From Brevundimonas naejangsanensis (GTDB taxonomy: Bacteria > Pseudomonadota > Alphaproteobacteria > Caulobacterales > Caulobacteraceae): a stretch of 64,000 nt of DNA. The notes beneath the pieces are model-generated. The model was not told the DNA's origin. It did not search any database and worked only from the letters and a program-made list of their open reading frames with translations. Of the stretch, positions 2,581-55,392 are shown one piece after another; the stretch's first letter is position 1, and the number at the start of each line of letters is the position of its first letter. The DNA is taken from positions 669,501 through 733,500 of the forward strand of contig NZ_CP032707.1 in assembly GCF_003627995.1 (NCBI RefSeq), written 5' to 3'. The position numbers were made by a program, and so were the translations under genes.

Positions 2581-3456
2581 TCAGGCGAAAGGATGGCTCC
2601 GGGCGACCACGAGATCACAGGGCGTCAGCGTCGGCAGACGCGCCAGCTCGACCGCTTCCAGTTCACCCGTCGTCATGATGCGCCAGAACGAGAAGCCCAG
2701 CCCCTGCAGCCAGCGCGCGAACTCCGCCGGATCGGCGCGAGAACGCATCTGCACGACGTCCCATTCGATGCAGAGCACGACATCGGGTTTTCGCAGCAGC
2801 GCTTCGGCCCCGCGCAGGATGAGCGGCTCCGACCCCTCGGCGTCGATGCGGATCAGCTTGATGGCGGGCAGGTCCAGATCATCGATCCGCACCGCCTCGA
2901 CCTGAATGACCTCGGCGTCCGGCCCCAGCGCGCCTTCGCCCACATAAATGTGGCCGCCGCCCGCGAACTGGCGCGACACGGTGAAGCGCAACTGGCCGGC
3001 CTGATCGCTGACCGCCTGCTGACGCACGTCGACCCGGGCGCCGAAGCCGTTGAAGCGGACCGACCGAGCCGCCAGCGCCGCCAACCGGGGGTTGGCCTCG
3101 AACGTGGTCACAGAGCCGCGCGGCCCCACCGCGTCGGCCAGGCCCAGGGTGTAATAACCGACGTGCCCGCCGATCTCGAGGACGTGGTCGCCAGGCTGGA
3201 CCAGCCCCATTACGACCCGCCTCGCCCAGGGCTCCCATTCGCCGCGGGCGATCAGGTGCGAACAGACGCTTTCCTCAAGCGGGTCCACAAAGATGAAGTG
3301 GCCACTCTTCAACCGGGCGAGACCCATCCCGTCGCCGAGATAGAAATACTCCCGGGGCGCGGGCGCGGGCGCGCAAGCGGGCATGGGCGCGAGCGTGACG
3401 ACCGGATCCGGATAGGGGCGACGACGGCGGCCGAAAATCCGAGGCAACAGCTTCAT
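2581..3456 (-). CDS. FkbM-family SAM-dependent methyltransferase
   Basis: This 291-residue protein has the Rossmann SAM-binding motif VLEIGGHVGYYTL (residues 92-104), an acidic ribose contact in FEANP (119-123) and the family's DAEGSE (205-210). Those features fit FkbM-type methyltransferases, which often methylate sugars or secondary-metabolite hydroxyls; the substrate here is unknown. The divergent neighbour at 3678 is a glycosyltransferase, which hints at a surface-glycan substrate. The first 35 residues are basic and then Pro/Ala-rich, with no signal peptide. It reads toward putA but is separated from it by 173 bases containing a regulatory dyad, so it is probably not in the same operon. 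Confidence 0.85.
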   Translation of the reverse strand: MKLLPRIFGRRRRPYPDPVVTLAPMPACAPAPAPREYFYLGDGMGLARLKSGHFIFVDPLEESVCSHLIARGEWEPWARRVVMGLVQPGDHVLEIGGHVGYYTLGLADAVGPRGSVTTFEANPRLAALAARSVRFNGFGARVDVRQQAVSDQAGQLRFTVSRQFAGGGHIYVGEGALGPDAEVIQVEAVRIDDLDLPAIKLIRIDAEGSEPLILRGAEALLRKPDVVLCIEWDVVQMRSRADPAEFARWLQGLGFSFWRIMTTGELEAVELARLPTLTPCDLVVARSHPFA

Positions 3457-3677
3457 GACGGTCTTTCATGGCTACGTTCGGCCACTAACGGCAGACTTAG
3501 CCTTACCGCCATGTTCGGCAAGCCGAAAGGCCTGATTAGTTGTTCATCCACTGACGATTAGGCTAGGCGGTCGCCAGGCGCGACGTTTCCGGCCGACATG
3601 ATGGCGTCTCGCCTTCGTCACGCGGAGCGTCTAGAACTTCATACTCGACGAAACGGCTCAAAGGCCCAATCGACTTC

Positions 3678-4763
3678 ATGCGCATTGTTCTGGTCACCGA
3701 CGCCTGGGAGCCTCAGGTCAACGGCGTCGTCCGCACCCTGACCCGCACCGTGGCCGAGTGCCGCGCCATGGGCCATGAGGTGGAGGTCATCGAACCCAGC
3801 CAGTTCAAGACCATCCCCTGCCCGACCTACCCGGAAATCCGCCTGGCCCTGGGCGCCGAGGAGGAGATTCGCGAACGCCTGCGCGCCTTCGAGCCCGAGG
3901 CCGTCCACATCGCCACCGAGGGCCCGCTGGGCATCGCCACGCGGCGCATCTGCGTGGAGTGGAAACTGCCCTTCACGACCAGCTACCACACCAAATTCCC
4001 CGAGTACGTCTCGGCCCGTTTCCCGATCCCGGTGCAGGTCGGCTACGCCTACATGAAGTGGTTCCACAAGCCGTCGGGCCGATTGATGGTGGCGACGCCG
4101 ACCCTCCGCGACGAACTGGTCGAGCATGGCTTCAAGAATGTCTCGCCCTGGTCGCGCGGCGTGGACACTGAACTGTTCCACCCCGACCTTCCGCCCATCT
4201 ATGACGAGTTGGGCGGAAAAGACTGGCCCCGCCCCTTCTTCCTCAACGTCGGCCGCGTCGCCGTCGAGAAGAACATCGAATCCTTCCTCAAGCTGGACCT
4301 GCCGGGGACCAAGATCATCGTCGGCGACGGTCCGGCCCGCGCCGAGCTGGAAGAGAAATATCCCGAGACGAAGTTCCTGGGCGCCCGGTTCGGCGAGGAC
4401 CTGGCCCGCTGCTTCGCCGACGCCGACGTCTTCGTCTTCCCCAGCTGGACCGACACCTTCGGCCTGGTGATCCTGGAGGCCATGGGCACGGGCACGCCGG
4501 TCGCCGCCTATCCGGCCCACGGCCCGATCGACCTGATCCCCGGCTCGGGCGCGGGCTTCATCGACGACGACCTGAAGACCGCCTGCCTGAAATGCCTCGA
4601 GCTCGACCGCAAGGACGTCCGCGCCTATGCGGAGAAGTTCAGCTGGCGCGCCTCGGCCGAGCAGTTCGTCGAGAACCTGCAGCCCTATCCCGAACCCGCG
4701 CGCGGCCGTTTCTGGCGCCGCCTGCGCCGGGTAGCGCGGCTGCGGCGACGCGCGGCGGCGTAA
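3678..4763 (+). CDS. GT4-family glycosyltransferase, GT-B fold
   Basis: The 361-residue protein begins MRIVLVTDAWEPQVNGVVRT, the glycine-containing N-terminal loop of retaining GT4 enzymes. FLNVGRVAVEKN opens the nucleotide-binding domain. The E-x7-E type signature appears as DTFGLVILEAMGTGTP (about residues 259-274). It resembles the MgtA/PimB-like alpha-mannosyl or glucuronosyl transferases that act on membrane lipids; the exact donor and acceptor cannot be read from sequence. The C-terminus is strongly basic (FWRRLRRVARLRRRAAA), suited to membrane-surface association. It stands alone, divergent from the FkbM methyltransferase across 221 bases in which no clear motif was seen. Confidence 0.88.
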   Translation: MRIVLVTDAWEPQVNGVVRTLTRTVAECRAMGHEVEVIEPSQFKTIPCPTYPEIRLALGAEEEIRERLRAFEPEAVHIATEGPLGIATRRICVEWKLPFTTSYHTKFPEYVSARFPIPVQVGYAYMKWFHKPSGRLMVATPTLRDELVEHGFKNVSPWSRGVDTELFHPDLPPIYDELGGKDWPRPFFLNVGRVAVEKNIESFLKLDLPGTKIIVGDGPARAELEEKYPETKFLGARFGEDLARCFADADVFVFPSWTDTFGLVILEAMGTGTPVAAYPAHGPIDLIPGSGAGFIDDDLKTACLKCLELDRKDVRAYAEKFSWRASAEQFVENLQPYPEPARGRFWRRLRRVARLRRRAAA

Positions 4764-4802
4764 GCGCCGAACCTCTCCCTCGCCGGCGCCCCACACCCCT
4801 TG

Positions 4803-4835
4803 CCGTCATCCTCGGGTCAAGCCCGAGGATGACGG
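4803..4835. repeat. REP-like extragenic palindrome
   Basis: A perfect 14-bp inverted repeat (CCGTCATCCTCGGG / CCCGAGGATGACGG) with a 5-base loop lies between the convergent glycosyltransferase and pstS genes. Palindromes of this type (tcatcctcggg...) are common extragenic repeats in alphaproteobacteria. It may also help terminate the glycosyltransferase transcript, though no T-run follows. Confidence 0.6.
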
Positions 4836-4870
4836 TGGCATGAGGGAATAGAGCGCCAACTCAAAGCAAA

Positions 4871-4896
4871 GCGCCGCGATCCTTCGATCGCGGCGC
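4871..4896 (-). terminator. Rho-independent terminator after pstS
   Basis: An 11-bp perfect stem GCGCCGCGATC / GATCGCGGCGC with a 4-base loop is followed on the minus strand by TTTGCTTTG. It sits 29 bases after the pstS stop. Confidence 0.75.
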
Positions 4897-4924
4897 TTGC
4901 CGTCAAACGTCTGGGGCCTCGGCC

Positions 4925-6001
4925 TCAGTTCGGGCGGGACATCGAGGTCATGGCCGCCGCCTTGGCGCGTTCAACCGCCAGCTGCTCGGCCTGCAGCGGC
5001 ACCAGGCCGCGGTCCTGCAGATAGCCGCCGCGGCCGGCGGCGCCGTCCGACATGAACTCCTGGACGAACTGCTCCAGGCCCGGCGTCACGCCGATGTGGG
5101 CCTTCTTGACGTAGATGTAGAGGCTGCGCGCCAGCGGATAGGAGCCGTCGGCGATGGTGGCGACCGAGGGGGCCACGCCGTCGATGGTCTCGGCCTTCAC
5201 CGTGTCCATGTTCTGCTCCAGGAAGGAGAAGCCGAACACGCCCAGCGAGCCCGGGGTGCGGGTCAGGGTCTGGACGATGGCGTTGTCATTCTCGCCCGAG
5301 TCGATCCAGGCGCCGTCTTCGCGCAGGGTGTGGGCGATGGTCTCGAAGCGGGTCTTGTCCTGCTTCTCGACGGCGGCGACGGCCGGGATCAGCTTGGCGC
5401 CCGGCGCCATGCCCAGCTCCAGGAAGGCGTCGCGCGTGCCCGAGGTCGGCGGCGGGCCGTAGACCTGAATGCGGGTAGCCGGCAGGGCCTTGTTGACCTC
5501 GTTCCAGGTCTTGGCCGGATTGGCCACGAACTGGCCGTCGGCGCCCGGCACGTCCTTGGCCAGGGCCTCGTAGAGGTCGTTCAGCTCGAGGTTGAAGCTG
5601 GCGCCGGTGCGGGCGGTGGCGATGACGATGCCGTCATAGCCGATCTTGAGCTCGACGATGTCGGTGACGCCGTTCTCGACGCAGCGGTCGAACTCGCTCT
5701 GCTTCATCGGCCGCGAGGCGTTGGCGATGTCGGGGGTCGAGGGGCCGACGCCGGCGCAGAAGGCCTGGATGCCGCCGCCCGTGCCCAGGGACTCGATACG
5801 GGGGCTGGAGCCGGCGCCGCCGTTGCGGGCGAAGGTCTCGGCCACGCGCGTGGCGAAGGGGAAGACGGTCGAGGAGCCCGCGGCCCAGATGCCCGTGCGG
5901 GCCTTCTGCGAACCGGGGGCGGCGCCCTCGTTATTATTGCCGCAGGCCGCGAGGGCCAGGAGGGCGGCCGCGCAGGCGGTGAACTTCAGTGTGCGGATCA
6001 T
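4925..6001 (-). CDS. pstS: PstS-like periplasmic phosphate-binding lipoprotein
   Basis: The 358-residue protein starts with a lipoprotein signal peptide and lipobox LALAAC (Cys20). The mature part has the PstS pattern GSSTVFPF near residue 44, ESLGTGGGIQAFCAGVG, IANASRPMK and SGTRDAFLELG, which form the phosphate pocket. It should deliver phosphate to an ABC permease. No pstC, pstA or pstB is in the window; the upstream transporter genes are phnCDE. The 78-base gap after phnE carries CTGTCAC-type half-sites, so pstS may have its own PhoB-dependent promoter as well as read-through. A strong terminator follows. Identification as a PstS-family protein is firm. Confidence 0.9.
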   Translation of the reverse strand: MIRTLKFTACAAALLALAACGNNNEGAAPGSQKARTGIWAAGSSTVFPFATRVAETFARNGGAGSSPRIESLGTGGGIQAFCAGVGPSTPDIANASRPMKQSEFDRCVENGVTDIVELKIGYDGIVIATARTGASFNLELNDLYEALAKDVPGADGQFVANPAKTWNEVNKALPATRIQVYGPPPTSGTRDAFLELGMAPGAKLIPAVAAVEKQDKTRFETIAHTLREDGAWIDSGENDNAIVQTLTRTPGSLGVFGFSFLEQNMDTVKAETIDGVAPSVATIADGSYPLARSLYIYVKKAHIGVTPGLEQFVQEFMSDGAAGRGGYLQDRGLVPLQAEQLAVERAKAAAMTSMSRPN

Positions 6002-6079: not shown

Positions 6080-6907
6080 TCAGAGCAAACGTCGACGCAT
6101 CGCCTGCGAAAGGAAGTCGATCAGCGTCACCGCGACGATGACCACGATGACCACGGCCGAAACGTCGCGGAAGGCGAAACCGTTCATTCGGTCGAACAGG
6201 ACCTGGCCGATGCCGCCCGCTCCGATCAGGCCCAGCACGGTGGCCGAGCGGCTGTTCGATTCGAAGCGGTAGAGGGCGAAGGAGGTCCACAAGGGCGCCA
6301 CCTGGGGAATCACGCCCCAGACGATCTCGTGCAGCTTGGACGCGCCGGTGGCGCGCACGCCCTCGACCGGACCCTTGTCGATCGACTCGACCGCCTCGGA
6401 GAACAGCTTGGCCAGGACGCCCGCCGTGTTCAGGGCGATGGCCAGGACGCCGGCCAGCGGGCCCAGGCCGACGGCGACGACGAACAACAGGCCCATCACG
6501 AGGTCGGGAATGGAGCGCAGCATGTTCATGATCCAGCGCACCGGCTGGACCACCCAGACCGGGGCGATGTTGCGCGCGGCGGCCAGACCCATGGGCACGC
6601 CCAGGAAGACGGCCAGGAAGGTGCCCCACAGGGCGATCTGGATCGTCTCCCACATCTTGCCGACGAACAGGCGCCAGTCGGCGAAGTTCGGGCGCAACAG
6701 GTCGGCGGAGAAGTTCTGGATGTTGGCCGAGTTGGTGATCAGGCGCGACAGATTGCCCAGATCGACCGCGTCGATGCTGATCAGCAGCAGGATCGCCAGG
6801 CCGCCCCAGATCAGGATGTCGAGGGCCCAGGCGCCGGCCGACTTGGCGGGCGCCTGGGGGATGGCGACGGCGGCCGGAGCGGCGCCGGTAAGCGAAACGT
6901 CGGTCAA
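6080..6907 (-). CDS. phnE: Phosphonate/phosphate-type ABC transporter permease PhnE
   Basis: The 275-residue integral membrane protein has about six hydrophobic segments. The inner-membrane permease EAA loop reads EGVRATGASKLHEIVWGVIP, followed by the PhnE-typical GLIGAGGIGQVLFDRMN. It forms the channel of the PhnCDE importer, known for phosphonates, phosphite or, in some bacteria, phosphate. Its start overlaps the end of phnD by 4 bases (ATGA), showing translational coupling. It is a single permease of normal size. Confidence 0.92.
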   Translation of the reverse strand: MTDVSLTGAAPAAVAIPQAPAKSAGAWALDILIWGGLAILLLISIDAVDLGNLSRLITNSANIQNFSADLLRPNFADWRLFVGKMWETIQIALWGTFLAVFLGVPMGLAAARNIAPVWVVQPVRWIMNMLRSIPDLVMGLLFVVAVGLGPLAGVLAIALNTAGVLAKLFSEAVESIDKGPVEGVRATGASKLHEIVWGVIPQVAPLWTSFALYRFESNSRSATVLGLIGAGGIGQVLFDRMNGFAFRDVSAVVIVVIVAVTLIDFLSQAMRRRLL

Positions 6908-7917
6908 GGCTGGACCTCACGCAGGCGGCGAAGGCGTTGCAGTTCGGCCTCGGCGCGGGCCGCGCCGGCCGTGTCGCCCTTGTCCTTGGCCTCGGCCAGG
7001 GCCTGGTCGGCGATCATCTCGCGCACCGGGTTCAGGTAGGACTCATCGGCCGGGTTGAAGCCGGAATAGTTCAGGTCCTGGAGGATCTTGCGCTGGCGCT
7101 CGGCCTCGGCGCCTTCGCCCCGCCCGTAGGACAGGAAGAAGCCGCGGATCTTTTCCTTGATCGCCGGGTCCAGGTCCTGGCGGATCACGATGCCGGCCTC
7201 GGGGATCGGCGGCGAGCGCCAGATTTCCTCGAGCTGGGCGGCGATCTGCGGGTTCGAACGGCCGATGAACACGGTGTTGATGGTGTTCGAGGTGGCCACC
7301 TGCACCAGGCCGTTGGCCACGGCGAAGGAGTTGGCCTGATGGTTGGCCGTCCGCACCGTCTTGAAGCACTCGTTCGGCACGACGTGGTTCGGATTGAACA
7401 GGAAGGTCATGGGCGCCAGCGTGCCCGAGGTCGACAGGGCGTCGCCGATGCCGAAGTCATACTTCTTGCCGCAGGCCAGAACGTCCTGAAGCGTGATGCC
7501 CGAGCCCTTCTTGACGATCAGGGTCGACTGGTAGCTGTCCAGGCCGTTGGGATCGACGATGCGGGCGACGACTTCGCCGTTGGCGCGGTCGATGGCCTCG
7601 ATCGCCGTCTTGGCCGGGAACCAGGCCGCCTGGATCTGGTTGCCGCGCATGGCCTCGACCAGCACGGTGTAGTTGGAAGCGAAGTAGGGCTTCACCGGCA
7701 CGCCGACGGCCTTGGTCATGTCGTCCAGCAGCGGCTGCCACAGCGGGCCCGAGGACGCCTGGCCCTCGGCCGGCAGGATGGCGAAATTGATCTGCGTCGG
7801 CGCCCCGCCGCCGGCGGGCGTCGTCTTGTCGCCCGAACCGCAGGCGGCCAGGCCCAGGGCGAGAACGGCGGCGGCGGCCAGACCCAGGGCCCGGCGCGAC
7901 AGTTTGGAATGGGTCAT
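6904..7917 (-). CDS. phnD: Phosphate/phosphite/phosphonate ABC transporter substrate-binding lipoprotein PhnD
   Basis: The 337-residue protein has a lipobox LGLAAC (Cys26) after a hydrophobic signal segment. The mature part follows PhnD: NFAILPAEGQASSGPLWQPL, then VPVKPYFASNYTVLVEAM, then a second lobe with GIGDALSTSGTLAPMTFL around the ligand-binding loop. It should capture the substrate in the periplasm for PhnE. It overlaps phnC upstream and phnE downstream by 4 bases each. The substrate could be phosphate or phosphite as readily as phosphonate, because no C-P lyase or phosphonatase gene is present nearby. Confidence 0.92.
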   Translation of the reverse strand: MTHSKLSRRALGLAAAAVLALGLAACGSGDKTTPAGGGAPTQINFAILPAEGQASSGPLWQPLLDDMTKAVGVPVKPYFASNYTVLVEAMRGNQIQAAWFPAKTAIEAIDRANGEVVARIVDPNGLDSYQSTLIVKKGSGITLQDVLACGKKYDFGIGDALSTSGTLAPMTFLFNPNHVVPNECFKTVRTANHQANSFAVANGLVQVATSNTINTVFIGRSNPQIAAQLEEIWRSPPIPEAGIVIRQDLDPAIKEKIRGFFLSYGRGEGAEAERQRKILQDLNYSGFNPADESYLNPVREMIADQALAEAKDKGDTAGAARAEAELQRLRRLREVQP

Positions 7918-8711
7918 GCCTTGGCTTCCCAGAACGCGTCCTCGTATTCGGGACCGTAGATTTCGATCAGGCGCTTGGTGTCCAGGCCCGTCGACGGACC
8001 ATCATAGACCACCTTGCCCTTCTGCAGGGCGATCACGCGGTCGCAGTAGCGGATGGCGTAGTCCACCTGGTGCAGGGTGACGATCACGCCCAGTCCGTCG
8101 CGCTTGTTCAGCTCGACCAGCAGTTCCATCACCTTGCGGGCCGAGACGGGGTCGAGCGAAGCGACCGGCTCGTCGGCCAGGATCGCCTTGGCCCCCTGAA
8201 GCAGGACGCGGGCGATGGCGCCGCGCTGCTGCTGGCCGCCCGACAGGGTGTTGGCGCGCTGGGCGGCGTATTCGGACACGCCGACGCGGTGCAGGGCCGC
8301 CATGGCCTTGTCCTTGTCCGCCCTGGGCCACAGGCCGATCAGGCCGCGCCAGGCCGGCAGGCGCCCGAGGCTCCCCAGCATGACGTTGGAGAAGAGGCTG
8401 AGGCGGCCGACCAGGTTGAACTGCTGGAAGATCATGCCCAGGCGGCCGCGAGCGCGGCGCACCGCGCCGGTGATGCGGCCGTTCTGCTGGACCGTTTCGC
8501 CGAAGACCTGGATCACCCCCTTGCCGGGGTCGATCGGATGCAGGCCGGTGATCGAGCGCAGCAAGGTGGACTTGCCCGAGCCGGACGGGCCGATCAGGGC
8601 GACCATTTCACCGGCGCCGACTTCGACGGACACGCCGTCGAGCGCCTTTCTGGCCCCGTAGGTCTTCGACACGTCGCGAACGGACGCGACGGCGGCGATG
8701 GAAGGACTCAT
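7914..8711 (-). CDS. phnC: Phosphonate/phosphate-type ABC transporter ATP-binding protein PhnC
   Basis: From the ATG at 8711 the protein is 265 residues, normal for PhnC. It has Walker A GPSGSGKST (residues 41-49), Q-loop MIFQQFNLVGRLS, signature TLSGGQQQRGAIARVL, Walker B AILADEPVASLDP and a switch His in VTLHQVDYA. It powers PhnE transport. The reading frame stays open to 8774, but residues before MSPSIAAV look noncoding (arginine-rich) and no start has a good ribosome site. First gene of phnC-phnD-phnE(-pstS). Confidence 0.92.
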   Translation of the reverse strand: MSPSIAAVASVRDVSKTYGARKALDGVSVEVGAGEMVALIGPSGSGKSTLLRSITGLHPIDPGKGVIQVFGETVQQNGRITGAVRRARGRLGMIFQQFNLVGRLSLFSNVMLGSLGRLPAWRGLIGLWPRADKDKAMAALHRVGVSEYAAQRANTLSGGQQQRGAIARVLLQGAKAILADEPVASLDPVSARKVMELLVELNKRDGLGVIVTLHQVDYAIRYCDRVIALQKGKVVYDGPSTGLDTKRLIEIYGPEYEDAFWEAKA

Positions 8712-8889
8712 GAACCCGTGGATGCGGTTGCGACAAAGGGGGCGCCGCATGACGCGAGATGAGCGCAAGGGCAAGTCTTAATGACATGTCTGCGGCGATT
8801 TCGTCCAGTGCACGACCGACTTCTGTCACGCAGGCCCACGGCCAGGCTGAGATTTTTCCACTTTACATGCAGGGCCAATGCCCTCATAT

Positions 8890-8973
8890 CGCGCGTTTCC
8901 GGCGGACCCCGTAGGTCCTACTTGCGCCGCTAACGCCGGGTCTGGGTTAACAATCATCAGGGGGTTACGTGAG
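8890..8973 (+). promoter_or_regulatory. Candidate structured 5' leader (speF-like) of the ornithine decarboxylase gene
   Basis: A nested hairpin can form here: CGGCG (8900-8904) with CGCCG (8925-8929), enclosing GGACC (8904-8908) paired with GGTCC (8914-8918) around loop CCGTA. A speF leader motif is known upstream of alphaproteobacterial ornithine decarboxylase genes. Position and gene match; membership of that family is not proven here. An AGGGGG ribosome site follows at 8959-8964. Confidence 0.4.
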
Positions 8974-10236
8974 TTGCGCACGTACCAGCTTCCCCTGGAC
9001 CTGGTCCGTGAGCGGTCCCCGGAGCGTCCGGTCGCACTTGTGCGTCCGCGCTCGGTTTCCGTAGCGGCGCGCTGGTTCCAGGATAATCTGAAAGCCGACG
9101 TCTTCTATGCGGTGAAGGCGAACCCGTCGCGCTGGGTCATCGAGACCCTGGTGGACGCGGGCGTCAACGCCTTTGACGTCGCCTCTCTGGCCGAGATCGA
9201 ACTGGTCCGTTCGGTCAGCCCCGACGCGCGCCTGGCCTTCATGCACCCGGTCAAGAGCCGCGGCGCGATCAAGGCCGCCTACGCCTATCACGGCGTGCGC
9301 ACCTTCGTGCTCGACAGCCATGACGAGCTGAACAAGATCCTCGAGGCCACCGGCTACGCCGACGACCTGAACCTGGTCGTTCGCATGGGCGTGTCGGCGG
9401 ACGGCGCGGCCTATTCCCTGTCGGGCAAGTTCGGAGTCACCCCGGACCAGGCCCCCGCCCTGCTGCTGGCCGCGCGCCAGGCGGTCAGGGACGGCCTGAT
9501 GGGCGTGTCGTTCCACGTCGGCTCGCAGTGCATGCGTCCCTCGGCCTATGAGGCGGCGATGAGCCAGGTCGGCCGCGCCATCAAGAAGGCCGGCGTCTTC
9601 GTCGACATCGTCGACGTGGGCGGCGGCTTCCCCTCGGTCTATCCGGGCATGGTCCCGCCGGACCTGCAGGAATACGCCGACGCCATCCACCGCGGCTTCG
9701 CCGAAATGCCGGTCACCCACACCACCGAACTGTGGTGCGAGCCGGGCCGCGCCCTGGTGGCCGAAAGCTCGTCGGTGCTGTGCCGGGTCGACCTGCGCAA
9801 GGGCGACGCCCTGTATCTGAACGACGGGTCTTACGGCTCGCTGTTCGACGCCACCCATTCGCGCTGGCCCTTCCCGACCAAGCTGGTCCGGGACGGCGAG
9901 TCCTCGTCGGAGCTGAAGCCCTTCCGCTTCTACGGCCCGACCTGCGACTCCATCGACCATATGCCCGGCCCGTTCTGGCTGCCGGCCGACGTCCAGGAAG
10001 GCGATTTCATCGAGATCGGCATGTTGGGCGCCTACGGCGTGGCCATGACCACCGGCTTCAACGGCTACGGCGAGCACGACATCGCCGTGGTCGAGAACGC
10101 CCCCATGGGTTCGATGTACGGCCTGGCGCCGCGCTCCATCCCGACCGTGCGCACCACGGCCGAGGAGACGGCGCGCAAGGTCGTCCGCCTGTCGCGGCCC
10201 AAGGGCAAGGCCGGCCAGCGTCGACGCAAGCGTTGA
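8974..10236 (+). CDS. Type III PLP-dependent decarboxylase, ornithine decarboxylase-like
   Basis: Fold-type III PLP enzyme that should decarboxylate ornithine (or lysine/diaminopimelate) to a diamine. PLP lysine is in YAVKANP (Lys48 with this start). The phosphate-binding motif is VDVGGGFPSVYPG; the substrate motif is WCEPGRALVAES; the active-site Cys is in YGPTCDSIDHM; GAYGVAM closes the C-terminal barrel. The frame is open from an ATG at 8878 (452 residues). I favour the TTG at 8974 (420 residues), which has AGGGGG ten bases upstream, while the 8878-8973 segment encodes nonconserved residues and contains a hairpin. A terminator separates it from the DHS-like gene. Confidence 0.9.
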   Translation: MRTYQLPLDLVRERSPERPVALVRPRSVSVAARWFQDNLKADVFYAVKANPSRWVIETLVDAGVNAFDVASLAEIELVRSVSPDARLAFMHPVKSRGAIKAAYAYHGVRTFVLDSHDELNKILEATGYADDLNLVVRMGVSADGAAYSLSGKFGVTPDQAPALLLAARQAVRDGLMGVSFHVGSQCMRPSAYEAAMSQVGRAIKKAGVFVDIVDVGGGFPSVYPGMVPPDLQEYADAIHRGFAEMPVTHTTELWCEPGRALVAESSSVLCRVDLRKGDALYLNDGSYGSLFDATHSRWPFPTKLVRDGESSSELKPFRFYGPTCDSIDHMPGPFWLPADVQEGDFIEIGMLGAYGVAMTTGFNGYGEHDIAVVENAPMGSMYGLAPRSIPTVRTTAEETARKVVRLSRPKGKAGQRRRKR

Positions 10237-10274
10237 CCGGCTGACCCAAAATCGTCTTCGGACGTTGGTACAAG

Positions 10275-10310
10275 CAGCGGCCCGTCGCTCCGTCCGGGCC
10301 GCTGTTTCAT
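10275..10310 (+). terminator. Rho-independent terminator after the decarboxylase gene
   Basis: A 10-bp stem CAGCGGCCCG / CGGGCCGCTG is followed by TTTCATTT, 38 bases after the decarboxylase stop and 45 bases before the next start. Confidence 0.7.
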
Positions 10311-10348
10311 TTGACGACGGGCGCTCAAATCCGAGGGAAACCACTGAA

Positions 10349-11401
10349 ATGAACGCTCCCGTTCAGTCGAACAAGAAGGCCGAACTGCTGGCCACCACCG
10401 TCGAGCACGTCGACATCACCGCCTACGACGCGCGCCCGGTCATCGATTCCATGCGCAAGATGTCGTTCAGCTCGCGCGACACCGCTCGCGCCGCCGACAT
10501 CTTCAACATGGCGCTGGAAGACGAGACCTGCTCGCCGTGGCTGATCCTGGCCGGTTCGACCTCGGCCGGCGGCTGCATGCACGTCTATCGCGACATGGTG
10601 CAGTTCAACATGATCGACGCCGTGGTCGCCACCGGCGCCTCCATCGTCGACATGGATTTCTTCGAAGCCCTCGGCTACAAGCACTATCAGGCTGCGGGCC
10701 CGGTCGACGACAACATCCTGCGCGACAACTACATCGACCGCATCTACGACACCTACATCGACGAAGAAGAACTGCAGGACTGCGACAACGCGATCTATGA
10801 GATCGCCAATCGCCTGGAGCCGCGCGGCTATTCCTCGCGCGAGTTCATCTGGGAAATGGGCAAGTGGCTGTCGGAAGGCAACGCCAAGAAGCCCGGCTCG
10901 CTGATCCAGACCGCCTATGAGAAGGGCGTGCCGATCTTCTGCCCGGCCTTCGTCGACTCCTCGGCCGGCTTCGGCCTGGTCAAGCACCAGAAGGAACGCG
11001 CCAAGGAAGGCAAGCCGTACATGATGATCGACGCGGTCGCGGACTTCCGCGAACTGACCGACATCAAGATCGCGGCCGGCACCACGGCCCTGTTCATGGT
11101 CGGCGGCGGCGTGCCCAAGAACTTCGCCCAGGACACCGTCGTCTGCGCCGAGATCCTCGGCGAGGACGCCGAGATGCACAAATACGCCGTGCAGATCACG
11201 GTCGCCGACGTGCGCGACGGCGCCTGCTCGTCCTCGACGCTGCAGGAGGCCGCTTCGTGGGGCAAGGTTTCGACCACTTACGAGCAGATGGTCTATGCCG
11301 AAGCCACCACGGTCGTGCCGCTGATCGGCTCGGACGCCTATCACCGCGGCACGTGGAAGGCCCGCGAGCCGCGCCAGTGGGCCAAGCTGTTCGGCAAGTA
11401 A
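10349..11401 (+). CDS. Deoxyhypusine synthase-family protein, probably homospermidine synthase-like
   Basis: The 350-residue protein carries the deoxyhypusine synthase fold signatures: ILAGSTSAGGCMHVYRDM, AVVATGASIVDMDFFEALG, CPAFVDSSAGFG and the catalytic-lysine motif EAASWGK (Lys306; EAVSWGK in eukaryotic DHS). Bacteria lack eIF5A, and bacterial DHS homologues are known that use putrescine as acceptor to make homospermidine. The upstream putrescine-forming decarboxylase supports that. The start at 10349 follows a GAGGG site at about 13 bases; the longer frame from 10265 runs through the preceding terminator and was rejected. A terminator follows. Confidence 0.87.
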   Translation: MNAPVQSNKKAELLATTVEHVDITAYDARPVIDSMRKMSFSSRDTARAADIFNMALEDETCSPWLILAGSTSAGGCMHVYRDMVQFNMIDAVVATGASIVDMDFFEALGYKHYQAAGPVDDNILRDNYIDRIYDTYIDEEELQDCDNAIYEIANRLEPRGYSSREFIWEMGKWLSEGNAKKPGSLIQTAYEKGVPIFCPAFVDSSAGFGLVKHQKERAKEGKPYMMIDAVADFRELTDIKIAAGTTALFMVGGGVPKNFAQDTVVCAEILGEDAEMHKYAVQITVADVRDGACSSSTLQEAASWGKVSTTYEQMVYAEATTVVPLIGSDAYHRGTWKAREPRQWAKLFGK

Positions 11402-50373: not shown

Positions 50374-51129
50374 ATGGTGACGCGCGCGGTCAGTGTGCGC
50401 CGCTCGACGTCCGCGTCGGGGGAACTGGCCGCGCTGCGCAATCTGACGGCCATGACCCGCCTGAGCGAAGAAGAACGCGCCCTGGTGCGGCGGCTGTGCG
50501 TCTTCCAGGAAGTCGTTCCGGCGGGCCAGCCCTTCGACCCGGACGGCCGGGCGGCCTCGCCGCGCCTGATCCTGAGCGGCTGGGCCTGCCGCCAGCGCAT
50601 CCTGGCGGACGGGCAGCGTCAGATCTTCGGCTTCCTGCTGCCGGGCGACTCCGTCGGCCTGAGCCTGGAGCCCCGCCCGCTGGACGAAACCTCGACCGTC
50701 GCCCTGACGCGGGTCGAATATGTCGACGCCCTGATGCTGAGGGAAATCCTGGCGCTCCAGGATCCTCGCCACGAACGCCTGCGCCGCGCCCTGGCGACGT
50801 CCCGTCGCTATGAAGAGGCCTGCCTGCTGAACCACGTGGTCCGGCTTGGGCGGCATTCGGCCCAGGCGCGCCTGGGCCATCTGCTGCTGGAGTTGCGCGA
50901 CCGCCTCCAGCGCGCCGGACTTTGCACCGGCGACCGCATGCACCTGCCCCTGACCCAGGAGACCCTGGCCGACGCCCTGGGCCTGAGCCTGGTGCACGTC
51001 AGCCGCACCCTAGGCCAGATGCGGCGAGGGCGGCTGATCGCCATGCAGAACGGGTGGGTGACCCTGCTCGACGAGGCCTATCTGCGCGCCGCCTGCGACT
51101 ACGGCGCCGAGGCCCCCCTTCTTCACTGA
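50374..51129 (+). CDS. Crp/Fnr-family transcriptional regulator
   Basis: About 251 residues. The N-terminal cyclic-nucleotide-type beta-roll reads RLILSGWACRQRILADGQRQ and IFGFLLPGDSVGLSLEP. A dimer helix and a winged helix-turn-helix follow, with LPLTQETLADALGLSLVHVS as the recognition part and RTLGQMRRGRLI as the recognition helix. It has no Fnr-type Cys cluster at the N-terminus. The start is unsure: ATG 50374 or an upstream GTG at 50314. Only 29 bases separate it from the FapF-like gene, so it probably controls the adjacent locus. Confidence 0.88.
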   Translation: MVTRAVSVRRSTSASGELAALRNLTAMTRLSEEERALVRRLCVFQEVVPAGQPFDPDGRAASPRLILSGWACRQRILADGQRQIFGFLLPGDSVGLSLEPRPLDETSTVALTRVEYVDALMLREILALQDPRHERLRRALATSRRYEEACLLNHVVRLGRHSAQARLGHLLLELRDRLQRAGLCTGDRMHLPLTQETLADALGLSLVHVSRTLGQMRRGRLIAMQNGWVTLLDEAYLRAACDYGAEAPLLH

Positions 51130-51158
51130 ACTGGAACAAGAGAAAGAGAAAGCGCGCC

Positions 51159-52496
51159 ATGGGCCAGCACAAACTTCCGTCTCAGCGACGCCGTCCTCCC
51201 GCTTCGGCCAGACGCGGACCCGCGCTTCAACTGTTGCGCGCGTCCGTCGCGGCCGTCGCCCTGCTCGCGCCGAGCGCCGTCCTGGCCCAGGACGAGGATC
51301 TGGCCGCCCGGGTCGCGCGGCTGGAGGCGCTGATCCTCGAGCAACAACGGCGGATCGAGGCTCAGGAGGCGCTGCTGGCCGAGCGCGCCGCGACGGCTCC
51401 GCCCGAGGTCGATCCCCGCTGGCGCGTACAGGCCGACGGCTCGGGCCAAGGCGTCTTCGTCGACCGAACCCTGGACGAACTGCGCGCCGGGCGACAGGTC
51501 GCGAGCACTCTCACGCCCAACGGCCAATCCCAGCCGCCCCCCATGGTTGACGCGCAGGCCCCGCCTTCGCCCCAGGAGGTGACTCGCGAGCAGCTGGCCG
51601 CCATTCCCGAAGGCATCGCCGTGCTGAGCCAGCCCGGAAAGCTGACGGTGGACCTCTCGGCCGAATACACCCGCTCCAGCGCCAATCGCCTGGTGTTCCG
51701 GGGCATTGAGATCGTGCCGGGCGTGCAGATCGGGGTGATCGAGGCCAATGAGGCCGACCGCGACACGGGCGTGGTCACCCTGGCGGCGAAATACGGCATC
51801 GCCCCCGGGCTCGAAGGGGAGATCCGCGTGCCCTACGTGTGGCGCAACGACACCATCACCACCGTGCAGCAGCGCGACGAGGCAGTGACCCGCACCATCG
51901 ACTTGAGCGGCGACGGCGTTGGCGACGTCGAGGCCGCCGTCCGCTACCAGATCAACGGCGGCGAACGCGGGCTCCCGATCTTCATCGCCGGCCTGAGGGT
52001 CAAGAGCGACACGGGCGAAGGCCCCTTCGACATCGACCGCGACGAGTTCGGCGTCGCCACTCGGCTGGCCACCGGATCGGGCTTCTGGGGCGTGGAGCCC
52101 AGCATCAGCTTCCTCTACCCCAGCGACCCGGCCGTCATCTTCGGCAGCCTGAGCTACTTCGCCCACCTGCCGCGCGACATCGACAAGACGGAAGGCGAGA
52201 TCCGCATCGGCAAGGTCGATCCCGGCGACGCCATCGGCCTGTCGATCGGCTTCGGCTTCTCGCTGAACCCGCGCTTCTCCTTCTCGCTGGGCTACAAGCA
52301 CAACTACATCCGGCCGACGTCGAGCCAGTTGAACGACATCACAGAAAAGTCGGACTCGCTGCAGGTCGGCGCCCTGCAGTTCGGCATGTCCTACCTGCTG
52401 AGCGATCGGTTCAGCCTCAACGGCAATTTCGAATTCGGGGTGACCGAGGACGCGCCGGACATGCGCTTCGTCCTGCGCGTGCCGATCGTCTTCTGA
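51159..52496 (+). CDS. FapF-like outer-membrane protein with N-terminal coiled coil
   Basis: A 445-residue protein with a long basic signal peptide ending ...SAVLAQ (about 44). A heptad coiled coil follows (ARVARLEALILEQQRRIEAQ; residues 46-79), then a linker and a beta barrel of about 12 strands ending DMRFVLRVPIVF. Order and length match FapF, the trimeric amyloid secretion pore of Pseudomonas. Barrel segments include LTVDLSAEYTRSSANRLVF, LGLEGEIRVPY-like strands and FSLGYKHNYIRP. It faces the peptidase and small secreted-protein genes across a terminator. Family similarity is by architecture, not a search. Confidence 0.72.
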   Translation: MGQHKLPSQRRRPPASARRGPALQLLRASVAAVALLAPSAVLAQDEDLAARVARLEALILEQQRRIEAQEALLAERAATAPPEVDPRWRVQADGSGQGVFVDRTLDELRAGRQVASTLTPNGQSQPPPMVDAQAPPSPQEVTREQLAAIPEGIAVLSQPGKLTVDLSAEYTRSSANRLVFRGIEIVPGVQIGVIEANEADRDTGVVTLAAKYGIAPGLEGEIRVPYVWRNDTITTVQQRDEAVTRTIDLSGDGVGDVEAAVRYQINGGERGLPIFIAGLRVKSDTGEGPFDIDRDEFGVATRLATGSGFWGVEPSISFLYPSDPAVIFGSLSYFAHLPRDIDKTEGEIRIGKVDPGDAIGLSIGFGFSLNPRFSFSLGYKHNYIRPTSSQLNDITEKSDSLQVGALQFGMSYLLSDRFSLNGNFEFGVTEDAPDMRFVLRVPIVF

Positions 52497-52501
52497 GCAT
52501 G

Positions 52502-52528
52502 AAAAAGGGGCCGCCCGGCGGGCGGCCC
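52502..52528 (-). terminator. Terminator at the end of the minus-strand Fap-like operon
   Basis: GGGCCGCC-loop-GGCGGCCC followed on the minus strand by CTTTTTC, between the convergent FapF-like gene and the last minus-strand gene. Confidence 0.8.
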
Positions 52529-52564
52529 TGAAATCCCTCCATCGAGACGCGGGCGCCCCGAACG

Positions 52565-53254
52565 TCAGAAGCCCGTCCCCCTGAGGCCCGCCCAGTCGAT
52601 GTCGCGCAGAATCTGCGAGCCGTAGTTCTGCATCCGACTGTCTGCCTGGATCGCAGCCAGGTCGGGCAGGAACAGGTTCAGCTCCATCTCCTGGCGGATA
52701 TTGCGGTTGTCGGCATTGTTGATGATCAGGTTCTGAAGCTGGCTGGTCGTGATGTTGTGCAGGATCGCCGTCGCGCCGTCGGAATCGATCACCGCCACGC
52801 CGCCGGCGTTCTGCAGCCCGCTGAGGTCGATGCCGCCGGCCGCCAGACCCTGCATGGCGCTGGCCAGATCCTGGACCCCGGGCACGCTGTGCTGGGTCTG
52901 CTGCGTCACGGGACCGGCTGGCGTCCAGGTCAACTGGGTCTTCAGCGCCAGCTGGCCGTTGACATAGGAGCGAACCACCGCCCCGAAGCCGAAGGTGAAG
53001 CCCCCGGCCGTCATGAAGCCGCCCCGCGCCTCGGCCAGGTCGTCGTCGGTCATGGCCTGGGGACCAGGGCCCGCCACGGCGGCGAAGACTTCCGGGGCGG
53101 GACGGTCCACGGGACGATCCAAGACAGGATCCAGGGCCGGATCGCCGCCGAGATCGGCGACAAAGCTGATCGCTTGAGCCGAGGCCGACGCCGGGACCAG
53201 GGCCGGCCCCAGGAAGATCATGGCGAGCAGCATACTTGAACGCGCGTTTCGCAT
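52565..53254 (-). CDS. Secreted protein with double-glycine leader-like motif, possible peptidase substrate (FapE position)
   Basis: A 229-residue product with signal peptide (SASAQA, about 27). At residues 68-79 MTDDDLAEARGG resembles the 'LS..EL..I.GG' sequence before which C39 peptidases cut. Beyond it come GFTFGFGAVVRSYVNGQLAL and an Asn-rich stretch (NLIINNADNRNIRQE). The size is close to FapE of Pseudomonas. The ATG at 53254 has GAGG 8 bases upstream; a GTG at 53263 overlapping the peptidase stop is an alternative. Function is inferred from the locus. Confidence 0.72.
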   Translation of the reverse strand: MRNARSSMLLAMIFLGPALVPASASAQAISFVADLGGDPALDPVLDRPVDRPAPEVFAAVAGPGPQAMTDDDLAEARGGFMTAGGFTFGFGAVVRSYVNGQLALKTQLTWTPAGPVTQQTQHSVPGVQDLASAMQGLAAGGIDLSGLQNAGGVAVIDSDGATAILHNITTSQLQNLIINNADNRNIRQEMELNLFLPDLAAIQADSRMQNYGSQILRDIDWAGLRGTGF

Positions 53255-53259
53255 GAGGG

Positions 53260-53991
53260 TCACCTCAGATAGGGATCGAGAGAGAAGCGAGTCGTCACCT
53301 GGTACAGGGGCGGCAACTCCCGCGTCAGTTCAGCCAGGGACAGGGGCTGGAGCGCCTGGCCCGGCCGCGACCGATTCCAGGGAAGCCATTCCTCGGCATC
53401 ATTGAAGGTGTCCGCCGGCTGGCGGACCACGAAGGCGACCCCGTTCCACATTGCGGAGAACTGGTCGCGCGAATAGATCTTCAGGCCGAGGGCGGGATCG
53501 CCGATCAGCACGCGGCCCGCGTCATCGCCCTTGAAGACCACGAAATGCTTGTAGCCGGCCGTGTCGATCATGACGATGGCCGGAGCGTTCATCCCGATGA
53601 GGTCATCGAGGCTGAGCCGGAAGCCGTCGGCGGCGTAGCCGTGCCCATCGAGATACCGCTTCATGTCCAGAAGCGAGAAGCCGACCCTCTGGATCGTGGC
53701 CTGATCGCCGGCGGCGTACATGGCCCGGAACACCTGCTCCTCGCCTACGTCGCGTCCGTAGTGATGACGCAGCAGGGTGGCAAGGGCCGCCGACCCGCAG
53801 CTGAAATCGTATCGCTGGCGCACCACGGTGCGGAACGGCAGGTCGCGATAGCTGACCACCTTGACCCGTCCGGCCACGGGGCCGTTATGCAACAGGATCT
53901 CCGCCCGCGCCGAGGTCGAGGGCAAGGCCAGCAGCCCGGCCATCACGGCCAGAACCGCGCCGACCGAAGCCTTGCGGACGATCGGCCTCAC
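53260..53991 (-). CDS. Secreted C39-family cysteine peptidase, FapD-like
   Basis: The 243-residue product has a signal peptide (STSARA, about 30) and a complete C39 peptidase domain: RQRYDFSCGSAALATLL with Cys65, AGYKHFVVFKGD with His149, and LIGDPALGL with Asp165. There is no transporter fused to it, so it resembles FapD rather than a bacteriocin exporter. It should cleave a partner in the periplasm, perhaps at a GG site. Its start overlaps the preceding small gene by 4 bases and its stop abuts the next one. Confidence 0.85.
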   Translation of the reverse strand: MRPIVRKASVGAVLAVMAGLLALPSTSARAEILLHNGPVAGRVKVVSYRDLPFRTVVRQRYDFSCGSAALATLLRHHYGRDVGEEQVFRAMYAAGDQATIQRVGFSLLDMKRYLDGHGYAADGFRLSLDDLIGMNAPAIVMIDTAGYKHFVVFKGDDAGRVLIGDPALGLKIYSRDQFSAMWNGVAFVVRQPADTFNDAEEWLPWNRSRPGQALQPLSLAELTRELPPLYQVTTRFSLDPYLR

Positions 53992-54386
53992 GGGTTCGGG
54001 GCCGTCGTCACGATGTTGATCGTGATCGCGCCTTGCAGATTATTGTTGTTGCCGCTGTTCATCACGAAATTGCCGATGCCGTTGAACCCGGCGAAGGCGT
54101 TGGCGTCGATGCGCAGGGCGCCGGTGGTCACGGTGTTGGCGTTGACGCTGTTGCCGCTGTTGGTCGCCTGCAGCAGTTGGTCGCTGGCGACGATGACGAC
54201 GGCTCCCTGGCGGCCGTGCAGGGCGTCGAGTTCATTCGTTTCCAGGGACTGCGGCCCGACGGGCGCATTCGACACGGTCGGCGCCTCGGGCGCGATGATG
54301 GGGGGCGGAGGGGGTGCGTCGGGCGCCGCGGCCGATTCCGGATCCGCCGCCCCCAGCAAGGCCAAGGCCGTCAAAATGCTGAACAT
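53988..54386 (-). CDS. Small secreted protein sharing the AFAGFxGI motif, possible amyloid nucleator
   Basis: A 132-residue product with a signal-like N-terminus (MFSILTALALLGAADPESAA) and a proline-rich linker. At about residues 48-60, SLETNELDALHGRQ is leader-like. An Asn/Ala/Gly/Ser-rich C-terminal region follows: AFAGFNGIGNFVMNSGNNNN (97-116), then LQGAITINIV. This motif recurs in the next upstream gene's product. The size recalls the minor Fap subunit. GGGAGGG precedes the ATG, and it overlaps the peptidase gene by 4 bases. Confidence 0.75.
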   Translation of the reverse strand: MFSILTALALLGAADPESAAAPDAPPPPPIIAPEAPTVSNAPVGPQSLETNELDALHGRQGAVVIVASDQLLQATNSGNSVNANTVTTGALRIDANAFAGFNGIGNFVMNSGNNNNLQGAITINIVTTAPNP

Positions 54387-54401
54387 GTTTCCCTCCCAGG
54401 A

Positions 54402-54433
54402 AGAAAATCGGCGGCCGGGAGAACCGGCCGCCG
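54402..54433 (-). terminator. Intra-operon terminator after the repeat-protein gene
   Basis: A perfect 10-bp stem CGGCGGCCGG / CCGGCCGCCG with a 5-base loop is followed on the minus strand by ATTTTCTT. It lies between the repeat-protein stop and the next start, so it could lower expression of the downstream peptidase operon. Confidence 0.8.
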
Positions 54434-54446
54434 AGTACAGAGCGAT

Positions 54447-55064
54447 TTACTGGCCGCCGTTGCCGAAAGTGACGTTGGCGTTGGCGCTGACCGCCGTCGC
54501 CGCTTGTCCGATCGAGGCCAGGCCCGAGTTGTTGCTCACGGTCTGAATGCCAGCGAAGCCCGCGAAGGCGCCGCCCCGTTGGGTGATGTCGCCGGAGCGC
54601 ATGTCAGCGTCCTGCCGGCCATCATGGTCTTCACGCTGATCGAAGCCGACGTCGCTCACGTTGGCGGAGAGCTCCTGGTAGTTCAGCGAAACGCGAACGT
54701 TCCAGTCATGGGTCGAGTTGTCAGTGTTAAAGGAGTTATTCGTATTGTTCGAATGCTCCGTATTGAAAGAATGATCGACGTCGGTGTCGTTGTCGTAAGT
54801 GCGGTTATCGTTGAAAGAGTTGGTGTTGTCGGTGTCGTACTTGCGATTATTGCTGAACGAGCTGCCGAGATCGACATTCGTGTTATAGGTATCGTTGTAC
54901 GAATCCGTGGTGTGCGAATGGTCGTTGAACGAGTCGTCAATGACCTTGTCGCCACCCTTGTCGTTCCTGTCGTGGCCACCGCCATAGGACTGAGCGTAGC
55001 CCGCGCTGGCGAAAGCCAGCACGCCTGCCAGCACCACCGCCGAACTCATCAGTTTGGTACGCAT
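54447..55064 (-). CDS. Secreted Asn/Asp/Ser/Thr-rich repeat protein, candidate amyloid or fibre subunit
   Basis: A 205-residue product with signal peptide (FASAGYAQS, about 24). Residues 41-120 are built of degenerate units with S-[FY]-N-[DT] at 45, 55, 83, 99 and 111, rich in Asn, Asp, Thr and His and almost free of hydrophobics. A segment WNVRVSLNYQELSANVS follows, then ITQRGG and the shared motif AFAGFAGIQTVSNNSG (166-181), ending with ANANVTFGNGGQ. No Cys. Codons are AT-richer than in the neighbours. I propose a fibre-forming structural protein; this is inference. A strong terminator follows it. Confidence 0.78.
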   Translation of the reverse strand: MRTKLMSSAVVLAGVLAFASAGYAQSYGGGHDRNDKGGDKVIDDSFNDHSHTTDSYNDTYNTNVDLGSSFSNNRKYDTDNTNSFNDNRTYDNDTDVDHSFNTEHSNNTNNSFNTDNSTHDWNVRVSLNYQELSANVSDVGFDQREDHDGRQDADMRSGDITQRGGAFAGFAGIQTVSNNSGLASIGQAATAVSANANVTFGNGGQ

Positions 55065-55392
55065 CTCTCTGCCTCCAATCTTATTGGGAACGGAGGCTCC
55101 TCCACCTCCGACTTCCGCAATCGCCAGAGCAACGCGGTCGTTCCTGGCAGTCGGGTCACGGAAATTTCTCGGAAATTCGTCGAGTTGGCCGCCTCATGCC
55201 GAGACTGGCGCTCAATTGGTGTGGACTCGCCAAGCGGCGGCGATGCAGACCTGCCTTTTGATCAAGAGGCCACCCGGAATAAAATCGGCGACAAGGTGAC
55301 TTTTTCGAGCCTGGATCGAGTCCGCGTCGAATCGGTCCGAGATCGTCGCTCCCGTGGCGCAATCGCTCCGGCCGTGCTACGCGCGCCGGACC
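55065..55392. other. 328-base intergenic region between the repeat-protein gene and lepA
   Basis: Divergent control region. It holds a direct repeat CGGAAATT at 55159-55166 and 55170-55177 (11 bases apart), part of which also forms AATTTC-tcg-GAAATT. A TTGATCAA word lies near 55258. No gene or RNA structure is supported. Confidence 0.5.
55159..55177. promoter_or_regulatory. Tandem CGGAAATT, possible regulator site of the Fap-like locus
   Basis: Two CGGAAATT units in the same direction, 11 bases apart, about 100 bases before the repeat-protein start. Dyad AATTTC...GAAATT overlaps them. No known factor is assigned. Confidence 0.25.

Follow-up and report, generated by a model that had tools for sequence, protein, structure and literature searches.

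A Brevundimonas gene cassette that probably represents a sister lineage of the Fap fibre system

A stretch of 64,000 nucleotides from Brevundimonas naejangsanensis (the window, to which positions refer unless a locus or genome handle is given) was analysed and a cassette of six genes was identified between positions 50374 and 55064 which most probably (at about 0.8) serves the secretion and assembly of a cell-surface protein fibre, as a sister lineage of the Fap amyloid system. The observations behind this reading are homologies, gene order, a leader pattern, co-occurrence and a module shared between proteins; from these we infer cleavage, secretion through the barrel, fibre formation, a division of labour and a role in biofilms. 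The products lack the three repeats of about 39 residues found in FapB and FapC, and for that reason the cassette is described as a sister system and not as a bona fide fap operon. An earlier note made from the letters of the window had placed six genes here, all of which are open frames where it put them, and had suggested a distinct lineage of C39-processed fibre, a suggestion now supported by a separate FapD clade.

Pore, peptidase and FapE-like protein

The gene at 51159..52496 (+) is predicted to encode an outer-membrane pore of the FapF type. Its product matched the NCBIfam FapF model (1.7e-37, model positions 121-420) and the FapF crystal chains PDB 5o67, 5o65 and 5o68 (3.4e-29 to 1.6e-28) over residues 159-445, which is the whole barrel. 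The FapF architecture proposed in the earlier note was therefore confirmed, and the possibility which the note had raised against itself, that the barrel belongs to an unrelated porin family, falls away. A signal peptide and, at about residues 44-78, a short coiled coil were recognised by eye; they and a linker precede the barrel. Phenol_MetA_deg (3.9e-07) was the sole Pfam match above cut-off, and the FilC model of Acinetobacter was matched under its cut-off (5.1e-17).

The gene at 53260..53991 (-) encodes a C39 peptidase which matched NCBIfam FapD at 4.1e-46, as expected from the earlier note, and FilB at 1.4e-40 (under cut-off). It stands alone, with no ATP-binding cassette (ABC) transporter in the same gene, and a signal peptide read by eye predicts a periplasmic location. 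Residues C65, H149, D165 and Q59, which we take to have catalytic roles, were invariant in an alignment of 14 rows of relatives. The cassette's own peptidase gave the one Pfam C39 match in the whole 3.0-Mb genome, and hence no bacteriocin-type C39 transporter was found there.

The FapE-like protein (52565..53263, -) consists of a signal peptide (read by eye), a propeptide, a double-glycine leader and a folded beta domain. Its family was compared with canonical FapE using hhalign, which gave a probability of 86% (E 5.1e-6) with the two aligned at the leader stretch, and a score of 46.5 against 14.5 for the best of 60 column shuffles; the trimming pattern applied beforehand had missed the leader in several rows. 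Hidden Markov model (HMM) matches between the two families, in both directions, fell on FapE genes only. The NCBIfam FapE model was matched by 2 of 48 FapE-like members, and the window's own protein had no match to it. On these profile comparisons the FapE-sized protein with a GG motif picked out by the earlier note is a distant FapE homologue. In the predicted model (mean predicted local distance difference test, pLDDT, of 80, with blocks of 88-97 over residues 91-230) a short helix covers the leader, and a beta domain predicted with confidence starts near residue 90, a little beyond the predicted cut.

Double-glycine leaders have a hydrophobic residue at position -12, an acidic residue at -8, L or M at -7, G or A at -2 and G at -1. 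This spacing was seen in the FapE-like protein and, in a looser form, in the small proteins described below. The FapE-like leader reads mostly L-S-D-x-E-L-x-x-x-R-G-G-F, behind what looks like a Sec signal; in the window, the codons of R80-G81-G82 lie at 53018..53026 (-) and C39 cleavage is predicted after G82. Relatives were drawn from 80 named loci, the best 80 of at least 587 when ranked by likeness to the window's C39, and counts from them consequently lean to close kin. A literal RGG was present in 70 of their 79 FapE-like open reading frames (ORFs) with no filter applied, one of these (L217) probably lying in a miscalled extension, and seven of the other nine carry TGG, VGG or RAG, the remaining two being L215 and L249. 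In alignment A3 of the FapE-like family (47 of the 79 relatives) the leader columns are partly a product of construction, as its rows were filtered for [RTV][GA]G[FYMLI]. Alignment A2 of the small subunits (49 of 78 relatives) was not selected for the leader, and over its 50 rows position -7 is L or M in all 50, position -2 is either G (41) or A (9), and position -1 is G in 23, R in 16 and another residue or a gap in 11.

The same leader stretch was present in all 13 canonical FapE proteins examined (L111 included), where it ends in G-R or G-K before F or Y. In the literature, no FapE peptides were reported from about the first 70 residues in Pseudomonas sp. UK4, FapD activity was needed for FapC secretion, Fap proteins were said to be without a canonical C39 sequence, and the target was called unclear in 2017 (PMC5557850); the FapD substrate was still to be determined according to a 2018 review (PMC6173800). 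The shared leader is the strongest result of the present analysis. It proposes an exact FapD site common to sister and canonical FapE, offers a candidate answer to the question of the FapD substrate, and makes that target directly testable.

The candidate subunits and their C-terminal module

The gene at 53988..54386 (-) encodes a small Asn-rich protein of 132 amino acids with the leader ELDALHGR and a C-terminal hairpin module (RIDANAF..GNFVMNSGNNNNLQGAITINI, residues 92-125, 54012..54113, -), which is proposed as the cross-beta unit. The gene at 54447..55064 (-) encodes a long Asn/Asp/Ser-rich protein of 205 amino acids, with a signal peptide read by eye, which ends in a module of its own (GGAFAGFAGIQTVSNNSG..QAATAVSANANVTF, residues 164-200, 54465..54575, -) and is proposed to be the major fibre subunit or a tether. 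The two modules were related to each other by hhalign (95.9%, E 5.9e-9). A likeness was also seen between the small-subunit module and the end of the FapE-like protein (60.9%), with a score of 27.5 where the best of 100 shuffles gave 12.3. Homologues of the long subunit range from about 200 to 880 amino acids and carry the same C-terminal module, some of the ORFs being over-extended at the N-terminus.

The earlier note had considered the subunits unrelated in sequence to FapB and FapC, and this was not upheld for the small subunit. A FapB profile (E up to 0.01) gave five matches among 4637 ORFs of the 80 loci, all five to subunit-type proteins (E 7.5e-4 to 5.1e-3; four were small subunits and the fifth a short ORF of the long-subunit type). 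Small-subunit profiles searched against canonical loci matched FapB and FapE genes only (E 6.6e-4 to 5.6e-3); the long-subunit profile matched nothing in those loci. A bridge between the two systems was provided by L108, an alphaproteobacterial sister cassette whose long subunit (6167-10612 of that locus, -, at least 1481 amino acids, starting close to where the fetched stretch ends) contains the module about 20 times, at a spacing of about 73 residues (E 2.7e-26 for the sequence as a whole, individual copies often being weak). A profile was built from 11 of these copies, chosen as fitting a pattern which was set after the protein had been viewed (several of the 20 HMM envelopes being weak). 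It was related at 81% to the repeat of canonical Fap, with a score of 23.9 where the best of 60 shuffles gave 14.5, and at 94% to the small-subunit module, the small-subunit profile in this comparison including L108's own small subunit. By these matches the small protein is a distant FapB-like protein, and the module would be a Fap-type stacking unit.

Under the fibre reading, all products but the regulator would be exported from the cytoplasm by Sec, and the FapF-type barrel would be placed in the outer membrane. The periplasmic C39 peptidase would cut the FapE-like protein after R-G-G, and probably also the small FapB-like protein after G-R or G-G, which would free the folded domain of FapE and yield a short subunit with a stackable Asn-rich C-terminal hairpin. 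The long Asn/Asp protein would cross the barrel unfolded and be attached or seeded via its matching C-terminal hairpin, its low-complexity stretch being left as the hydrated body of the fibre.

A number of results weigh against this reading. The pore and the peptidase score well under the NCBI equivalog cut-offs (129 of 700 bits for FapF and 157 of 330 bits for FapD). The small-subunit module compared directly with the canonical Fap repeat reached 23-33% and the merged profile 15%, the long-subunit module reached about 1%, and most single FapB and FapE cross-matches are weak (E about 1e-3 to 1e-2). A repeat HMM made here had no match in the window's subunits nor in the 4637 ORFs of the 80 loci, and no match to FapC was found in the window's genome. 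The window's small-subunit leader ends in GR, and L087-L089 have AR in place of GG, which makes cleavage of the small subunit uncertain. The FapE-like model is a compact domain and not an obvious amyloid, and a fold search with it returned no convincing relative; the small-subunit model is poor (pLDDT 70, predicted TM-score 0.32) and contains a very short hairpin only.

In an alternative reading the cassette builds an adhesin or a surface-layer-like coat and no cross-beta fibres, the long protein being a disordered tether which pairs through beta-hairpins with FapE and the small subunit and is locked to them in this way. The long protein is mostly low-complexity with one module, and a single module would be expected to stack less than three repeats would; the array of about 20 tandem copies in L108 and the ties of the subunits to FapB and to the Fap repeat point the other way, and we regard this alternative as rather unlikely.

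Distribution and relation to canonical Fap loci

A strong C39 match (E < 1e-90) was present in 12 of 131 genomes of the genus, the window included, and 11 more had weak matches only. The long, small, C39, FapE-like and barrel genes lie in the same order at all 11 other strong loci, and every strong carrier in the genus thus has the five-gene cassette. For all six genes, nonsynonymous divergence (dN) was below synonymous divergence (dS) in both of the comparisons made with a relative (dN/dS about 0.12 to 0.50). As the five-gene order recurs in the genus, the core recurs in other genera and dN is below dS, the cassette is not a chance arrangement.

Among the 80 named loci a small subunit lies beside C39 in 74 by a strict rule and in 78 by a relaxed one, a FapE-like gene is present in 79 and a barrel in 73, and all four occur together in 67. 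Some of the missing genes fall at contig ends (L175, L194) and others do not. Upstream of the small gene, 74 of 78 loci have a low-complexity ORF at a distance of no more than 2.6 kb (picked by composition with no chance control); most of the 74 have a similar C-terminal end by eye and 25 match the long-subunit module profile. As a further point against itself the earlier note had named a C39 gene recurring without its partners. A small or FapE-like gene adjoins C39 at each of the best 80 loci. When the window's proteins were used as queries against 40 loci of a wider set, C39 appeared alone at nine; two of the nine (L100 and L106) proved on reading to have leader-bearing FapE-like and small proteins. 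At L094 and L096 the fetched stretch showed no barrel. At L168 the small, C39 and FapE-like genes occur twice in tandem (524-2106 and 3388-4970), with equal lengths and scores.

The named loci come from Caulobacterales, Sphingomonadales, other alphaproteobacteria and many beta- and gammaproteobacteria; two further records carry a deltaproteobacterial title or placement, and one is from Nitrospira. The cassette is therefore not an alphaproteobacterial particularity. The earlier note had described Fap loci as mainly beta-, gamma- and deltaproteobacterial; canonical loci with FapB/FapC repeats were also found in the class to which the window belongs, in three of the genomes sampled (L111, L112 and L113). 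A FapE-like profile matched 9 of 289 genomes of the class, each time beside a C39 gene found previously, and 14 of 349 genomes of the phylum, each time less than 5 kb from a FapF-profile match and in one case (G658) in degenerate form. The G658 region (C10:548442-549297) is an apparent cassette remnant, with a short FapF match containing a stop and a short FapE-like match.

In a midpoint-rooted FapD tree of 58 hand-picked rows, which included 35 of the 80 named loci, 40 sister-type rows and 12 canonical Fap rows fell on separate sides (support 100/97 and 98/97), and the row nearest to the window was Brevundimonas sp. UBA4609. A third group of stand-alone C39 genes (L114-L119) lies apart from both Fap and the sister system, with a barrel match also at L114, L115, L117 and L119. 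One canonical locus, L160, contains two FapD-type C39 genes (4807-5511 and 9719-10423).

The tree bears on the possibility that the cassette is merely a canonical Fap operon which diverged in alphaproteobacteria until its three-repeat FapB/FapC architecture could no longer be recognised. Such an origin would fit the shared pore, protease and FapE families and the retained order of subunits, D and E; it is made improbable by the presence of one module per subunit in place of three repeats of about 39 residues, by the split of the 40 sister rows from the 12 canonical ones, by a sister clade covering several classes, and by three genomes carrying both kinds. One of these, G123, holds a sister and a canonical locus (L109 and L113), and G623 and G672 have two FapF-profile matches each, the higher (about 373 bits) in loci with FapB/C repeats and the lower beside the FapE-like match. 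A secreted bacteriocin or microcin system, with the small double-glycine protein as a C39-matured peptide toxin, is very improbable: double-glycine leaders and weak matches of one FapE-like protein (0.095) and 1 of 50 small subunits (0.0082) to a bacteriocin-like family speak for it, and against it stand the Sec-type signals (by eye), a C39 gene with no ABC transporter, a FapE-like mature part modelled as a folded domain of 150 residues, and the FapF-type pore and long low-complexity partner, which together with the Asn-rich hairpin modules suit a fibre.

Local organisation and comparison with known systems

Directly upstream of the pore gene lies a Crp/Fnr-type regulator gene (50374..51129, +; mechanical ORF from 50314; Pfam HTH_Crp_2 3.6e-15), and these two forward genes converge on the four reverse-strand genes for the long, small, C39 and FapE-sized proteins. 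The small-subunit, C39 and FapE-like genes overlap by four bases at each junction (start codons as called) and are therefore probably translationally coupled. The regulator adjoins the pore at 10 of the 11 other loci of the genus, the eleventh (L085) ending at a contig edge, and is probably a local regulator of the cassette; a CRP-like ORF was present in just 9 of the 80 named loci, which places it outside the conserved core.

A terminator-like hairpin (52508..52528, -; nine G-C pairs and a T tail) lies between the convergent pore and FapE-like genes; terminator-like sites in the region number four, no excess over shuffled sequence (mean 3.3). An 11-bp G+C-rich hairpin with a T tail (54408..54434, -) separates the long-subunit gene from the small-subunit gene, and hairpins of differing sequence, several with T-rich tails, occupy this position in the window and at all 11 other loci of the genus, a count made with no shuffle control. 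It is possibly a partial terminator, and could raise the long protein above the rest, as suits a major subunit. A third hairpin, CGGAGGTGGAGGAGCCTCCG (55091..55110, -), lies in the mRNA leader of the long subunit just before the Shine-Dalgarno sequence; its six pairs are kept at 12 of 12 loci of the genus, with one-sided changes and no two-sided covariation. In this CGGAGG..CCTCCG element, CCTCC could pair with either GGAGG, one of which is the Shine-Dalgarno sequence, and a translational switch is possible.

The first description of Fap, in 2013, confined it to beta-, gamma- and deltaproteobacteria (PMC3792158). In five further phyla the 2018 review reported homologues of fapD and fapF that lie less than 5 kb from each other (PMC6173800); these pairs outside Fap may include loci of the present kind, and the section concerned describes no subunits, FapE-like proteins or leaders. 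The 2025 surveys, which demanded FapB/C repeat matches, recovered mostly three-repeat operons, in many families of Pseudomonadota and some other phyla (PMC12392863, PMC12822426). Since the repeat HMM made here matches none of the 80 loci, a repeat-based filter would probably drop sister loci, which suggests that such surveys would miss the whole sister lineage. Export of the Fap type may thus be broader than described. We put forward tentatively, at a little under even odds, that the cassette exemplifies a widespread second Fap-type class, present in several proteobacterial classes and outside them, and building two-protein fibres via one shared hairpin module with Sec export followed by C39 maturation, in which periplasmic FapD-type proteases cut double-glycine leaders on FapE (here also on the small subunit), and FapD likewise cuts Pseudomonas FapE at ..DxEMxxLRG(R/K)-(F/Y).

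Bacteriocin C39 leaders have the same spacing as those of the cassette, which instead stand behind Sec-type signals and are presumably cut in the periplasm by a stand-alone peptidase. The Acinetobacter fil system was compared through NCBIfam models only: the cassette's C39 and barrel matched FilB and FilC, the only Fil models matched (under cut-off) by eight window proteins that included the cassette's six, and the FapE-like, small and long proteins had no NCBIfam match with an E of 1 or below. With Fap itself (fapABCDEF of Pseudomonas) the cassette shares a homologous pore, a C39 peptidase, a FapE with a leader-like site, a FapB-like small subunit and the order of subunits, D and E. It differs in that each of the window's subunits has one module in place of three imperfect repeats, the long one being low-complexity with the module at its C-terminus; in that the FapE leader ends in GG, where the canonical one ends in GR or GK, and a second leader is added on the small subunit; and in its separate FapD clade and a pore gene that is often on the other strand (41 of 73 named loci).

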